Below, piece after piece: positions 13,247-18,566 of a stretch of DNA of 45,345 nt. The notes beneath the pieces were generated by a model. That model saw nothing but the letters and a program-made list of their open reading frames with translations, had not been told where the DNA came from and ran no database searches. The DNA is from Marine Group I thaumarchaeote (GTDB taxonomy: Archaea; Thermoproteota; Nitrososphaeria; Nitrososphaerales; Nitrosopumilaceae). Both the position numbers and the translations under genes were made by a program. Position 1 is the first letter of the stretch. Each line of letters opens with the position of its first letter. Where the stretch lies: positions 20,971 through 66,315 of the forward strand of contig JACATG010000007.1 in assembly GCA_013390905.1 (NCBI GenBank). Reading direction: 5' to 3'.

Positions 13247-15898
13247 TTATCCAGAAGTACAACCGCTGTACCCACATTCAATGCACATACTGCAACCTTC
13301 TACAAAGACAAGGTTGTTTTTGCATGTTGGACATAAACGATCTTCTGAAATCTCTTCGTGTATTAGAGATTCAGCTTTAATTTCTTCGTCATGAACCTTA
13401 ATTGCAAGTGCAGCATTGACTTGAGCTTTAATGTATGGGTTTGTGATATTTGCTGCTACAAAACTAGTAACATATTCAGTTGGTGTAACCTCAAATATCT
13501 TTTGTGCATTTTCACTTGTCATGTGAAGTACCTGCTTGTGTCTAGAACCATCACGATAAACCGTAATTCCTTTTAGTCCTAATTCATGTGCTAACAGGTA
13601 AGCAGATTTTACATCTTCTACAGTTGCATCATATGGCATGTTGATTGTTTTTGCAATTGCATTTCCAATCCAATCTTGCCATACTGCCTGAGCCATAAGA
13701 TGATCAGCCCAGTGGATATCCATTGCCGTTACAAAGACATCTTGCATCCATTGTGGAATTTCATCAAGTCCTTTCAGTGAACCATAGTTATCTGCAATCT
13801 TTGCAAGAAGTTCATCGCTGTAAAGGCCATTTTCTTTCAAAACTTCTTCGACAATCTTGTTTGTATAGAAGAATCTTCCAACAGTAACTCTCTTTTCAAA
13901 CACAAGAGCAAATGCAGGTTCCATTCCGTTTGAACAATCTGCAATCATAGATAGTGTACCAGTTGGGGCAACTGTGGAAACCAAGACATTTCTAATACCG
14001 TACTTTTTGATTTTCTCAATTAGTGCATCCCATTCGTAGGAATGAGATTCTTTTGGTTTTTCATAGTATCCTGATACTGGAATTTTTCCTTCAGGATATT
14101 CTGTCTTAGAACAAAGTGGGAACCCACCACGAGATTTAGCAAGGGCAACACTTTCTTCCATTGAATAGTATGTTAGAGCTTCAGATAGTTTTGCTTGTAG
14201 ATCATATCCCTCTTTGGAGTTATATGGAATTCTTAGTTTGTATAAGAGATCAGCAACTCCCATCACTCCAAGTCCAATTCTTCTAGACTCTTTTGATGCT
14301 ATAGTGATTTCTTTAACTGGATAGTTATTTACATCGATAATATTATCTAGGAATTTTGTTGTCTTTCTGATTATTTCTTCATATCTTTGCCAATCAAATT
14401 CATAAGTTTCATCTGCTTGTTTCTTTACAAGATTTACCAAGTTGATAGAACCAAGGTTACATGATTCGTATGGATAGAGACTTTGTTCACCACATGGGTT
14501 TGTTGCTCTTATTGGTGCTTGTCTGGCCTTAGCAAATACGTTGTATTTGTTAATTTGATCAAAGAAGATCAATCCAGGTTCTCCACTTTTCCATGCAGAT
14601 AGCGCAATCAGATCAATTAGTTGATGTGCGCTAATTTCTTTAACTGGTTTGTTGTCACGTGGACTACGTAATACATAGTTGCCATCTTTAGTGTTAACAA
14701 GTGCATGCCAAAAGTCTTCCCAGATACCAACACTAACGTTAAAGTTTTCTAAAACACCTGGTTCTGTTTTGTTTGTGATAAATTTTTCAACATCAGGATG
14801 CCATGCTTCAATAATTCCCATGTTTGCACCACGTCTTTTTCCCCCTTGTTTGACAACTTCAGTGACAGTATTGATAATATTCATAAAGGATACTGGACCG
14901 GATGCAACACCAGATGTTGATGCTACAATATCGCCTTCCTCACGAAGATCAGAGTAGTTGATTCCAACGCCACCACCTGACTTGAAGATTAGCGCCGCAT
15001 CAGAGGTTGATTTCATGATTTGTTCCATGTCATCCTCCATACTAAGCACAAAGCATGCTGAGAGTTGTCCTAATCTCCCACCCGCATTCATCATTGTTGG
15101 TGAATTTGGTAGAAAGTCTTGTGAGGTCATAAGCTCAAGGTTTTCGGTTATTCTATCTGCATAACTGTCAAGCTTCTTTGTTGCTAGTAATGTCAAAAGT
15201 TCTTTGAAGTTAATTTTCATCTGACCTTTGTTTGCAAGTGTTACATAGTGATTGATTAAGGATCTAAAATGCCATTTGTTTAGATAATAATCTCCTACTC
15301 TGAATTTATAGTCAAAGGCATCTAGTTTTTCAAGATAGGATTTTGCTTCATCTATATCTTGGTTAGTATTTCCTGCTTTGTCAAATATTTGTGAATCATA
15401 TAGAATATCACCAATTACGACTAGAATTGCAACTCTTTCAAACATTTGAGTTGGAGATTCAATGATCTCATTTTTTCCATTTCTGAAGAGATATCTTGAC
15501 GCTAGGACTCTCAGACAATTCAAATCAAACTTTTTGGAAACAGGATCAAGAGACTTTAGATTCAAGATTTTCATTTTTTCATCTCTTAGTTTTCTTCGCT
15601 CGTGTCTGTAAACGATGTATGCTTTTGCTATATCACTATTACCGCTATCGATTAAAGTTGACTCTACAATATCTTGAATATCTTCAACAGTAGGTGCTCT
15701 AGAACTCGTAAATCCTTGTTCTACTAGTTTGTTAACTACACTATCTGTAAGTTGATCAGCTAGACCACGATCGGCTTTAGAGGTGGCTGTCAATGCCTTG
15801 AATATAGCATTTGAGATTTTATCTTTATTAAAGACCGTTACCGTGCCACTACGCTTACGGATCTCATTGATAGTACTTTCTAGTTGTGAATTGTCCAA
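13247..15898 (-). CDS. nrdJ: Adenosylcobalamin-dependent (class II) ribonucleotide reductase
   Basis: The 883-residue enzyme reduces ribonucleotides to deoxyribonucleotides with a B12-generated thiyl radical. An N-terminal ATP-cone (about 18-105, VTVFNKDKISNAIFKAL) provides allosteric control. In the catalytic domain C282 (SACFVL) and C480 (YESCNLGS) are the redox pair, C469 the radical cysteine, with N467 and E471 in NPCGEQ. VAPTGTLSMIADCSNG is also present. The C-terminus is a Cys-rich tail (CPTCKNN...CSMCIECGYSGC). TTG 15898 has GGAG about 10 nt upstream. The NrdD-like chimera lies upstream on the same strand. Confidence 0.96.
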   Translation of the reverse strand: MDNSQLESTINEIRKRSGTVTVFNKDKISNAIFKALTATSKADRGLADQLTDSVVNKLVEQGFTSSRAPTVEDIQDIVESTLIDSGNSDIAKAYIVYRHERRKLRDEKMKILNLKSLDPVSKKFDLNCLRVLASRYLFRNGKNEIIESPTQMFERVAILVVIGDILYDSQIFDKAGNTNQDIDEAKSYLEKLDAFDYKFRVGDYYLNKWHFRSLINHYVTLANKGQMKINFKELLTLLATKKLDSYADRITENLELMTSQDFLPNSPTMMNAGGRLGQLSACFVLSMEDDMEQIMKSTSDAALIFKSGGGVGINYSDLREEGDIVASTSGVASGPVSFMNIINTVTEVVKQGGKRRGANMGIIEAWHPDVEKFITNKTEPGVLENFNVSVGIWEDFWHALVNTKDGNYVLRSPRDNKPVKEISAHQLIDLIALSAWKSGEPGLIFFDQINKYNVFAKARQAPIRATNPCGEQSLYPYESCNLGSINLVNLVKKQADETYEFDWQRYEEIIRKTTKFLDNIIDVNNYPVKEITIASKESRRIGLGVMGVADLLYKLRIPYNSKEGYDLQAKLSEALTYYSMEESVALAKSRGGFPLCSKTEYPEGKIPVSGYYEKPKESHSYEWDALIEKIKKYGIRNVLVSTVAPTGTLSMIADCSNGMEPAFALVFEKRVTVGRFFYTNKIVEEVLKENGLYSDELLAKIADNYGSLKGLDEIPQWMQDVFVTAMDIHWADHLMAQAVWQDWIGNAIAKTINMPYDATVEDVKSAYLLAHELGLKGITVYRDGSRHKQVLHMTSENAQKIFEVTPTEYVTSFVAANITNPYIKAQVNAALAIKVHDEEIKAESLIHEEISEDRLCPTCKNNLVFVEGCSMCIECGYSGCTSG

Positions 15899-16102
15899 TT
15901 ATAATCTCCAATAAAGATTAAGATAGATACCGGTATAAATGATTCTGCAACTTTTTCTTAAAGCTCGGTTCAATAATATTGACACCATTATTATGAAGTT
16001 CATACTAGCATAATTTTGATGGTAAACAATGATGATCGCTACATTGGAAACTAGTCAGAAAGTTTTAAAAAATAATCAGAACTAGTTTTTCGTTTACGAA
16101 TT
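15899..16102. other. Gap upstream of nrdJ: promoter and inverted repeat
   Basis: The 204-nt gap has no gene. A TATA-like TTTATACC (minus) lies near 15932-15939 before nrdJ, overlapping the small palindrome ATACCGGTAT. The inverted arms AAACTAGT (16048-16055) and ACTAGTTT (16081-16088) flank an A-rich stretch that reads as TTATTTTTTAAAA on the minus strand, a plausible terminator for the upstream gene. Confidence 0.4.
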
Positions 16103-18268
16103 TCAGATAACATATGGTGACTTACACTTTGGACACTTGTCTTCAAATGGTTCATCTTTGAAACCACACTCACCACAAATTGAAATTTTCATAACAGGTT
16201 TGAAAGAAGGTGTAAGGGTAGATAGTTTCTCAATTGATTTTTTAATTTCTTCAACCTTTGAATTTTTATCAATTTTCAATGTTACAAGTAATCCTCCGTT
16301 AAGTAATTTGGAGAATTTGTTACATTCAGAGATAGGCTCGCTTTTATTGGTATAATCACCAACTTCAGAAGCATTAATCACAACTCCCTCAGAATACGAG
16401 TCACCATCCATTGAATTAAGGGCAGAATTCTTGCCATATTTCTCACCATCTAGAGTAGCAAAACGATGTGAACCTTCAGTTTCAGTCATACAAATAGCCA
16501 CAGAATCACCTAATTCTTTGCCTTTTTTGGCTGCAACGTCAACTGCAGTTTCAATGACTTTGTGAAGAATTCCACGTCCTTCTTTGTTATTATGGAATCC
16601 AAGAATGTTAAAGACTGCTTCTTTAAGTCCTACCAAATTTACAACAAGAGAGACAGAACTTCTTTGCATGTATTGGGTGTTCTTTGCAAGAATTGGGTTA
16701 AGTCCTCTTCTAGTAAGATCTGAAATGTCTTTTTTTCTTAGTGCCATTGAAGATAGTGTAGGTTTCATTAATAATGCAAGTCTTGCTCTAAAGTAGGTTT
16801 CATCTTTATTTGATTCAAAAGCAAGTCTTGGAAGGTTTATAGAAACAGATTGTAGTATTATTGAAAGTGTGCCTACATTCTTTGTAGATCCATTTGTTAC
16901 ACCGTAACTTGATATTTGGCCTTGAGCAAACATTACTTTTCCGCCAAGTAAAATTATTTCAGATACTGATTGCGAGACATCAGTTATCTTTCCTTTATCA
17001 TGATCTATTATCAAACCAATTTTTGGGATTGGTGTTATCTTTGTATAATTTTTGTATGCGTTAATAATTGAATCAATTATTTTTGTATCAGAACCTAATT
17101 GTAATCGAATTGAGACAATAGTACCTGTTTTGTTGTATTTGGAAGTTGTAGATGCAGTTGCAAATGCATTAGTTAGTTTTTGTTCAAGTTCTGGAAGAGA
17201 CTTTGAATGTTTTGAAAACAATTGAACTAATCCATCAAGTACGATTTCTTGTGAAGCTTCTTTTGAAAGAAGAGAGATTATGATAGATAATGAACTTGAA
17301 ATCTCATCAAGTTGTTTTGATGCTGGGATTCGTGATACATCAAGATATTTTCCACCAAGAATAATTCCATCTTCAATCAATTCTTTAACATTAACAAATA
17401 TTGTATCAGGAATCATTGACCAGACTCCAGGGTTGGTAATGTGTAAATCTCCAGAAAGATGAGAATCTGCAACATCTTTTGGCAAGAGATTAGTAAGTAA
17501 GTGTTCAGCAAATATTGTCTGTCCAGTGTTAAACAGAAGACCTTCAGCACCGTTATTCACATTATTCAAGTTGGAAATCATCTCCTGAACGTCATAAACA
17601 GGTAGGCCTAGGCGTGCAAGTTTATTTCGATATTCCTCATGACCGTGCTCTAAGAGAACAGAATTTACCAGTTCTCTGATTAGTGAGCCTGTTAGATAGG
17701 TAGTTTGGTATTTGTAAATTCTATTTTCAACTTCTTCAGTAATTTTTTGTGCTAGTTCTAATGGAAGACTTCCTTCACGAACTAATGATTGAATAATTTT
17801 ATGAGAATTAAATTCCTCAATGGATGCATGTGATGTTCTAACATACATTTTTCCACTTTCAATGATTGATCTTTCTTCAATTTGTCTTGCCAAGCTCAAA
17901 ACTAGTTTTCCAAGATTTGTAATAGTATAACGTCTTTCAGATTTATTAAGTGCAACAAGAGATTGTCTTAGTAGTTTTCTCAAGTGGTATGCAAATTTGC
18001 CACTTTCTTTTTTTGACTTGAATCCAGCTAGGGATTTTAATTCAGAATAAGTCAGGGGGCCCTTGGAATTTAGGATTCTGAGAATATCAATTCTATTTGG
18101 ACTTGCCATAACAGAGAAGATCATTCTGACACGTTTTGACGTAGATTGTAAGATTCCACTTCTCTGTAGTTCTGGTGTCTCTTCATCACTCAATTCCATC
18201 TCTTCATCACTCAATTCCATCTCTTCTTTACTCAATTCCATCCCTTCTTTACTCAATTCCATGAACAT
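16103..18268 (-). CDS. Chimeric winged-helix / ATP-cone / NrdD-like protein, no glycyl-radical motif
   Basis: The 721-residue protein joins four parts. Residues 3-30 are four heptapeptides MELS(K/D)E(E/G). Residues 45-125 are an ArsR-like winged helix (ASPNRIDILRIL). Residues 140-228 are an ATP-cone. Residues 240-690 resemble class III ribonucleotide reductase (HLSGDLHITNPGVW). A zinc ribbon with C698, C701, C712 and C715 follows and the protein ends at 721. NrdD proteins continue after this ribbon into an RVxGY glycyl-radical loop; here it is missing, and no Cys sits in the usual catalytic region. This suggests a nucleotide-sensing regulator rather than an enzyme. It lies upstream of nrdJ on the same strand. 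The function is inferred. Confidence 0.82.
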   Translation of the reverse strand: MFMELSKEGMELSKEEMELSDEEMELSDEETPELQRSGILQSTSKRVRMIFSVMASPNRIDILRILNSKGPLTYSELKSLAGFKSKKESGKFAYHLRKLLRQSLVALNKSERRYTITNLGKLVLSLARQIEERSIIESGKMYVRTSHASIEEFNSHKIIQSLVREGSLPLELAQKITEEVENRIYKYQTTYLTGSLIRELVNSVLLEHGHEEYRNKLARLGLPVYDVQEMISNLNNVNNGAEGLLFNTGQTIFAEHLLTNLLPKDVADSHLSGDLHITNPGVWSMIPDTIFVNVKELIEDGIILGGKYLDVSRIPASKQLDEISSSLSIIISLLSKEASQEIVLDGLVQLFSKHSKSLPELEQKLTNAFATASTTSKYNKTGTIVSIRLQLGSDTKIIDSIINAYKNYTKITPIPKIGLIIDHDKGKITDVSQSVSEIILLGGKVMFAQGQISSYGVTNGSTKNVGTLSIILQSVSINLPRLAFESNKDETYFRARLALLMKPTLSSMALRKKDISDLTRRGLNPILAKNTQYMQRSSVSLVVNLVGLKEAVFNILGFHNNKEGRGILHKVIETAVDVAAKKGKELGDSVAICMTETEGSHRFATLDGEKYGKNSALNSMDGDSYSEGVVINASEVGDYTNKSEPISECNKFSKLLNGGLLVTLKIDKNSKVEEIKKSIEKLSTLTPSFKPVMKISICGECGFKDEPFEDKCPKCKSPYVI
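18179..18262 (-). repeat. Four 21-bp tandem repeats at the start of the NrdD-like chimera
   Basis: Four in-frame 21-bp units encode MELS(K/D)E(E/G), each opening with ATG GAA TTG AGT. Every unit therefore offers an in-frame start codon with a purine-rich GAAGAG just before it. Confidence 0.9.
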
Positions 18269-18413
18269 TTTTAATTTAAGGAGTAAATAAGACTTATGAC
18301 TGTATGAACTTGGGTAGTTTTAGATCAGATCTGTTGTTGACAGACAAAGATTTCTAACATAAACGATCTAATTTTTTAAAAAATGTAAAAATGATCTTTT
18401 TGGATCAGTTTTC

Positions 18414-18566
18414 TTAAACATCAAGTGAAAACTCTGATGTAGAAAGTTTCTGACCACATGACGGACACTTACCATTATAAGGTTTCATTACATCTTTAAG
18501 TGATTTTAGCATCTTCATGTTTGTAATCTTTTCTCCGCATTTACCACATGTAACTTCTACTGACAT
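18414..18566 (-). CDS. Small zinc-ribbon protein (50 aa)
   Basis: An ATG-initiated frame of 50 residues carries two CxxC knuckles, CGKCG at residues 7-11 and CPSCGQK at 34-40, with a Lys-rich helix between (NMKMLKSLKDVMKPY). This is a typical single zinc ribbon, probably nucleic-acid or protein binding. It lies alone between the NrdD-like gene (145 nt away) and the DUF35 gene (70 nt away). The specific role is unknown. Confidence 0.8.
   Translation of the reverse strand: MSVEVTCGKCGEKITNMKMLKSLKDVMKPYNGKCPSCGQKLSTSEFSLDV

Follow-up and report, generated by a model that had tools for sequence, protein, structure and literature searches.

A winged-helix protein with an ATP-cone and a catalytically dead NrdD-like body beside nrdJ in ammonia-oxidising archaea: a putative nucleotide-sensing regulator

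The stretch of DNA analysed here (the window, 45,345 nucleotides) comes from a Marine Group I thaumarchaeote whose Nitrosopumilus-like genome totals 1.23 Mb over 20 contigs. Its list of open reading frames holds an intact frame for a 721-residue protein (Table 1), and since orthologues of similar length occur in every ammonia-oxidising archaeon (AOA) sampled, this ORF is not a frameshift artefact. Most orthologues start at about residue 24 of the window ORF, and the true start of the gene may lie near 18199, behind a series of 7-residue repeats. These repeats form an N-terminal MELSKEE-like run (18131-18268, minus strand), where orthologue lengths vary. A gap of 204 bp separates the gene from nrdJ, which lies on the same strand. 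Just upstream of the gene, a zinc-ribbon protein of about 50 residues (CxxC...CxxC; 18414-18566, minus strand) is encoded, and it is present in most Nitrosopumilaceae promoter alignments.

Table 1. Positions of the features discussed, numbered in the window unless a locus or contig is named.
Feature	Position	Strand	Remarks
nrdJ, class II (B12) ribonucleotide reductase with own ATP-cone	13247..15898	-	directly downstream
nrdJ upstream region	15899..16102	.	GATC-rich in relatives, one GATC here (16034)
TATA-like box of nrdJ (ATCATTTATACC)	15932..15945	-	
Palindrome TATGAANTTCATA	15992..16004	.	exact copy once in genome
wHTH + ATP-cone + catalytically dead NrdD-like protein	16103..18268	-	721 aa, possible start near 18199
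NrdD-like body, residues 237-721	16106..17560	-	fold residues present, active site gone
C-terminal zinc ribbon C698/C701/C712/C715	16124..16177	-	no glycyl-radical loop behind
ATP-cone, residues 141-226	17591..17848	-	Pfam and alignment to NrdR
Winged-helix domain, residues 41-134 (DUF7347 / HTH_20)	17867..18148	-	Pfam
Putative regulator's promoter region	18269..18413	.	five GATC: 18323, 18328, 18365, 18393, 18403
Conserved core promoter GTCATAAGTCTTATTTAC	18283..18300	-	single exact copy in genome
Eight GATC sites between rfcS and gins23-mcm	L281:2518-2710; source genome C11:34017-34209		

Three units are joined in this protein. In Pfam, residues 50-124 match the winged-helix profiles (wHTH) DUF7347 (40.6 bits, cut-off 27.6) and HTH_20 (32.5 bits, cut-off 27), residues 141-213 match the ATP-cone (31.6 bits, cut-off 25.8), and residues 472-717 match NRDD at 95 bits, above the curated cut-off. 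The NCBIfam NrdD models match the protein far under their cut-offs, and for this reason it is not called NrdD. A profile search against the PDB recovered the class III barrel with its zinc ribbon at 1e-35, and the structure model matches T4 NrdD (1h7b) with a Z of 28.8 and an rmsd of 3.0 over 438 residues, a match that is not wholly independent because viral NrdDs were in the alignment behind this second model. Its mean pLDDT is 70.8, mostly near 90 in the body and below 50 in the winged helix, the identity of which rests on the sequence profiles. A first model, for which close homologues alone were used, had a poor mean pLDDT of 49.9 and was rejected. Sequence and fold together show that the body descends from a reductase of the NrdD type.

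The active site of this body has been lost. By the catalytic positions given for class III reductases (PMC11226230), T289 stands where the first active-site cysteine is expected (C79 in T4, C171 in P. copri), and I457 replaces the radical finger-tip cysteine (C290 in T4, C416 in P. copri) in a finger loop without any cysteine. The R-x-x-G-[YF] glycyl-radical motif is missing, the protein ending at residue 721, six residues after C715, the last zinc-ribbon cysteine, and the HxHD substrate-phosphate motif reads HITN, with N279 for Asp. Retained are the zinc-ribbon cysteines and the fold residues NLPR 478-481, G547, E550, D607, Y625 and GG658-659.

The same losses run through the family, which was aligned with true NrdDs (15 viral ones and archaeal neighbours) in a first set of 147 members vs 17 and in a wider, more divergent set of 105 vs 23. 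The first cysteine is present in every true NrdD (17/17 and 23/23) and in no family member (0/147 and 0/105), while the finger-tip cysteine is found in 15/17 true NrdDs vs 2/147 members of the first alignment; many anaerobic relatives carry a cysteine elsewhere in the finger loop, which is short in AOA members. Glycine in the glycyl column is found in 17/17 vs 0/147 sequences of the first alignment and in 23/23 vs 13/105 of the wider set, there usually as [FY]GK or [FY]GR, and the Asp of HxHD, present in all 17 true NrdDs, is Asn in 131 of the 147 family members. None of the 105 aligned members holds all three catalytic and radical residues. Since these residues are essential by what is generally known of class III reductases (PMC11226230), catalysis by the known class III mechanism is excluded for every family member seen. 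An early idea, that the anaerobic relatives are active fused enzymes, was ruled out, as the first cysteine is missing there too.

The ATP-cone agrees with NrdR at some of the nucleotide-binding positions and not at others. E151, F153 and K157 match E56, F58 and K62 of NrdR by spacing and are invariant or nearly so (nucleotide-binding residues from PMC9110341), and the phosphate-binding pair of NrdR, K50/R51, is replaced by T145/S146, beside an invariant R144; the ligand may therefore not be simply ATP/dATP. Adenine binding is plausible and the phosphate preference may differ, both possibilities being inferred from the sequence alone.

A protein search gave matches in 219 of 299 genomes of Thermoproteota, a count that takes in weak matches to true NrdDs, and full-length members with identical domain order occur in anaerobic lineages. 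The body tree places the family on one side of a branch and the true NrdDs on the other (support 99/97). A viral relative of the family was searched for and not found. Over 94 residues, identity of the winged helix is 99-100% in most Nitrosopumilaceae, 93-95% in the family f3, which we take from kinship to be Nitrososphaeraceae, and 77-78% in f2, likewise taken to be Nitrosocaldaceae; the body parts of the same genomes are 14-79% identical, the body drifting while the winged helix stays. Synonymous codon changes are as frequent in the winged helix as in the body, therefore constraint acts on the protein, and conservation of the region at the DNA level is excluded. Four shorter relatives (L126, L127, L128, L129; 545-636 aa) have bodies decayed further, and in one genome (G006) a long copy (L145) occurs together with a short one (L128). 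Contigs in bins labelled Phycisphaerales and Proteobacteria (L007, L041) carry this archaeal gene at about 90% identity, probably through mis-binning.

In 116 of 123 AOA loci the next gene downstream, with the same orientation, is nrdJ. Of the seven loci that remain, five end before nrdJ, one (L037) has a broken frame that nrdJ follows, and one (L119, genus g7) is without nrdJ. Among 82 other loci, class III nrdD takes the place of nrdJ in 8, all anaerobic relatives, and nrdJ is found in 1; a glutaredoxin gene sometimes lies between the two genes in these non-AOA loci. The pyrB gene (aspartate carbamoyltransferase) comes after the reductase gene in several anaerobic and aerobic lineages (L131, L134, L213, L240, L255, L114-L118), and in about 33 further loci it abuts the gene under study directly, in convergent orientation. 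The simplest account, which is inferred, is an ancestral order regulator-reductase-pyrB in which the reductase was later exchanged or lost. NrdR (TIGR00244) has no match in the source genome or among the protein's own family matches, and a true NrdR above cut-off is present in 7 of 151 Thermoproteota genomes. The source genome has no other NRDD protein, and its two ATP-cones are those of NrdJ and of the 721-residue protein.

Most of what a first-pass annotation, made without database searches, had claimed for this ORF is borne out. The union of winged helix, ATP-cone and NrdD-like body is confirmed by Pfam, the NrdD fold by the model, the stop just after the zinc ribbon by the residue count and the adjacency to class II nrdJ by the gene order. 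The absence of radical and catalytic cysteine motifs also held for the window protein, and the loss now extends to the family; neither an intact radical loop nor a cysteine elsewhere in the finger loop, which would have counted against the reading, was found in this protein. The ORF had been taken as a local chimera, and this part failed, the family being found across Thermoproteota.

The same annotation had proposed the nrdJ upstream region and the gene's own promoter as targets, and both share an unusual enrichment in GATC, with no binding data to go with it. A shared-word search found A/T-flanked GATC as the words common to the two promoters. GATC occurs at 21.7 per kb in the own promoter and 14.4 in that of nrdJ, compared with 3.7 in ORFs and 2.1 in the remaining intergenic DNA, over which the two promoters are thus enriched 7-10 times; the median of neither promoter is matched by any of 116 control regions, and other four-letter palindromes of equal composition show no similar enrichment at these promoters. 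The sites of the own promoter are spaced with a period of about 10.2-10.5 bp (cos 0.42 vs a null of -0.01+-0.08), a phasing that survives thinning to 23 dissimilar sequences; at nrdJ, strict thinning leaves only a weak effect (p about 0.06). In the source genome the own-promoter spacings are 5, 37, 28 and 10. Enrichment and phasing were found by exploration and the p-values are descriptive. Genome-wide, clusters of three GATC are no rarity within coding sequence (49, against 82 for CTAG as control), and the signal is therefore the intergenic density and not the number of clusters. No GATC arrays are present at the own, nrdJ or rfcS/gins23-mcm promoters in Nitrososphaeraceae and Nitrosocaldaceae.

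Three other elements were considered as sites and not retained. The TATGAANTTCATA palindrome, conserved in many but not all relatives, was not assigned to the protein, being replaced in several lineages where the winged helix is invariant. GCGATCATCGT, conserved in relatives, is merely an instance of the GATC site, and GTCATAAGTCTTATTTAC, in the core of the own promoter, is unique in the genome and resembles a core promoter.

A third GATC-rich promoter lies between the divergent rfcS and gins23-mcm genes. In a 386-kb scan, which took in the window and 340 kb from contig C11 and covered roughly 31% of the genome, it ranks first of 194 intergenic regions for GATC clustering, with eight sites in 193 bp (Poisson 10^-6.2), and the own promoter ranks third. 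Because a genome-wide pattern search had already turned up this cluster when contig C11 was picked, the rank serves to check how rare such a cluster is and does not count as an independent discovery. No 10.5-bp phasing is seen among the gins sites. An element AGGATCAATTGATCTNAC ... GAATTGATCGATCC at this promoter is kept in most Nitrosopumilaceae genera, even where GINS is only 40-50% identical, and GATCAATTGATC ... TTGATCGATC at the same divergent promoter is strongly conserved across Nitrosopumilaceae.

Presence of the gins element follows identity of the winged helix loosely. In 27 genomes, the four with winged-helix identity below 95% (86, 84, 63 and 56) all lack the element, and at least four GATC are found at the gins promoter in 20 of the 23 others (identity of 95% or more), the exceptions without the element being G302 (100%) and G287 and G300 (96-98%). 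The Spearman correlation is 0.48, and 0.49 at the genus level (p 0.07). Genera of low and high winged-helix identity differ in gins GATC (p 0.01), and overall divergence, taken as GINS identity, does not explain the covariation; the genera in this test are not independent. In genus g7 (L119, L386, L387) the winged helix has diverged and nrdJ is missing from the 1.5-2 kb downstream of the gene, L119 is also without the zinc ribbon, and the gins-mcm promoter of this genus has no GATC element, a GTAC-containing word occurring instead in its own and gins promoters.

Computation shows the architecture, the loss of catalytic residues, the conservation pattern, the gene order and the GATC enrichment and phasing. 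That the 721-residue protein regulates the adjacent reductase gene is likely, its DNA binding being inferred. On balance we favour, by a modest margin, a nucleotide-sensing transcription factor that arose from a retired NrdD and works like NrdR, because ancestry, active-site loss, winged-helix constraint and linkage to two reductase classes agree; DNA binding, ligand, GATC as the site and the sign of regulation are inferred. Counting against it are the absence of GATC arrays in Nitrosocaldaceae and, despite a 93-95% identical winged helix, in Nitrososphaeraceae, the single GATC upstream of nrdJ and the own-promoter spacings in the source genome, the weak phasing at nrdJ and its absence at gins, the loose covariation with its exceptions, the replaced K50/R51 pair and the low confidence of the modelled winged helix. 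The first-pass annotation had likewise suggested a reductase turned nucleotide-sensing transcription factor, and every computable part of that suggestion is supported, with DNA binding, ATP/dATP binding and the sign of regulation remaining inferences.

In this view, the protein would be a one-component transcription factor with an archaeal class III reductase as its ancestor. The winged helix would bind DNA, while the ATP-cone, alone or with the dimeric NrdD-like body, would read the nucleotide pool, and the ligand would change oligomerisation and hence operator binding, as in NrdR. The protein's likeliest targets would be its own promoter and the neighbouring reductase gene, which is nrdJ here and nrdD in the anaerobic relatives. 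The predicted operators in Nitrosopumilaceae are clusters of GATC-cored sites, and the putative target set would include the divergent rfcS / gins23-mcm promoter, tying dNTP supply to replication-fork genes. That the GATC clusters, those of the replication genes included, are its operators remains tentative and falls somewhat short of an even bet, without binding data. The same reserve applies to the full history, with DNA and nucleotide binding inferred, in which, early in Thermoproteota, a reductase gave up its chemistry, became a nucleotide-sensing regulator, stayed while the neighbouring reductase changed class, and in marine AOA came to control, by way of GATC operator clusters, an S-phase-like set made up of nrdJ, its own gene, rfcS and gins23-mcm.

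The rival that survives best, and remains possible, accepts a transcription factor of the reductase gene and assigns the GATC arrays to another regulator, the replication promoter not being a target. It is favoured by Nitrososphaeraceae, which have a near-identical winged helix without GATC arrays, by the genomes with 96-100% identity and no gins element, and by the TATGAANTTCATA palindrome as an alternative nrdJ site. Against it, the densest and best-phased array is in the own promoter, and g7 combines a diverged winged helix, no nrdJ neighbour, zinc-ribbon loss (G078) and no GATC at gins. Less probable is a regulator at the protein level, an inactive partner binding NrdJ or NrdD with the winged helix as a protein-protein module: the gene does adjoin nrdJ or nrdD, and reductase dimers and ATP-cone oligomers are known modes of control (PMC11226230), but this NrdD-like protein occurs in a genome that encodes no NrdD for it to partner, none of its other parts comes close to the winged helix in conservation, and an unusual motif is common to the promoters. 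An enzyme of different chemistry on the NrdD barrel is very unlikely; the fold and the core residues NLPR, G547, E550, D607 and Y625 are retained, yet the cysteines, the glycyl site and HxHD are gone, the body drifts fast and the AOA finger loop is short. A decaying relic without function, to which the missing catalytic residues might point, is all but excluded, since the frame is intact in nearly all genomes and the selection pattern of the winged helix, nearly invariant as protein with normal synonymous change, contradicts it.

If the transcription-factor reading is true, a dead reductase reused as the sensor of its own pathway would clearly exemplify the evolution of an enzyme into a regulator on the scale of a phylum, with a possible link from dNTP supply to the replicative helicase in archaea that are among the most abundant in the ocean. 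The shared GATC sites offer a short and direct list of DNA probes. No description of this family, nor any account of how archaea without NrdR fit reductase expression to nucleotide pools, was found in the literature searched, most subscription journals lying outside the search, and to our knowledge no protein joining a winged helix, an ATP-cone and a reductase body has been described.

The N-terminal domain resembles the ArsR-like winged-helix proteins of archaea (HTH_20 / DUF7347), but here it is joined to an ATP-cone and a reductase body. Like NrdD, the protein has an ATP-cone, the barrel fold, the NLPR motif and a C-terminal zinc ribbon; unlike NrdD, it is without both catalytic cysteines, the glycyl radical and HxHD, and has a winged helix added. 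The closest functional parallel would be NrdR, the operator boxes of which are reportedly spaced by helix phase (title of PMC12051234). Both join an ATP-cone to a DNA-binding domain, both genes often lie beside reductase genes, and autoregulation is probable. In contrast to the zinc ribbon and ATP-cone of NrdR, the protein described here has an ArsR-like winged helix as its putative DNA-binding part and a whole dead NrdD body, has no TIGR00244 match, and occurs in archaea without NrdR.
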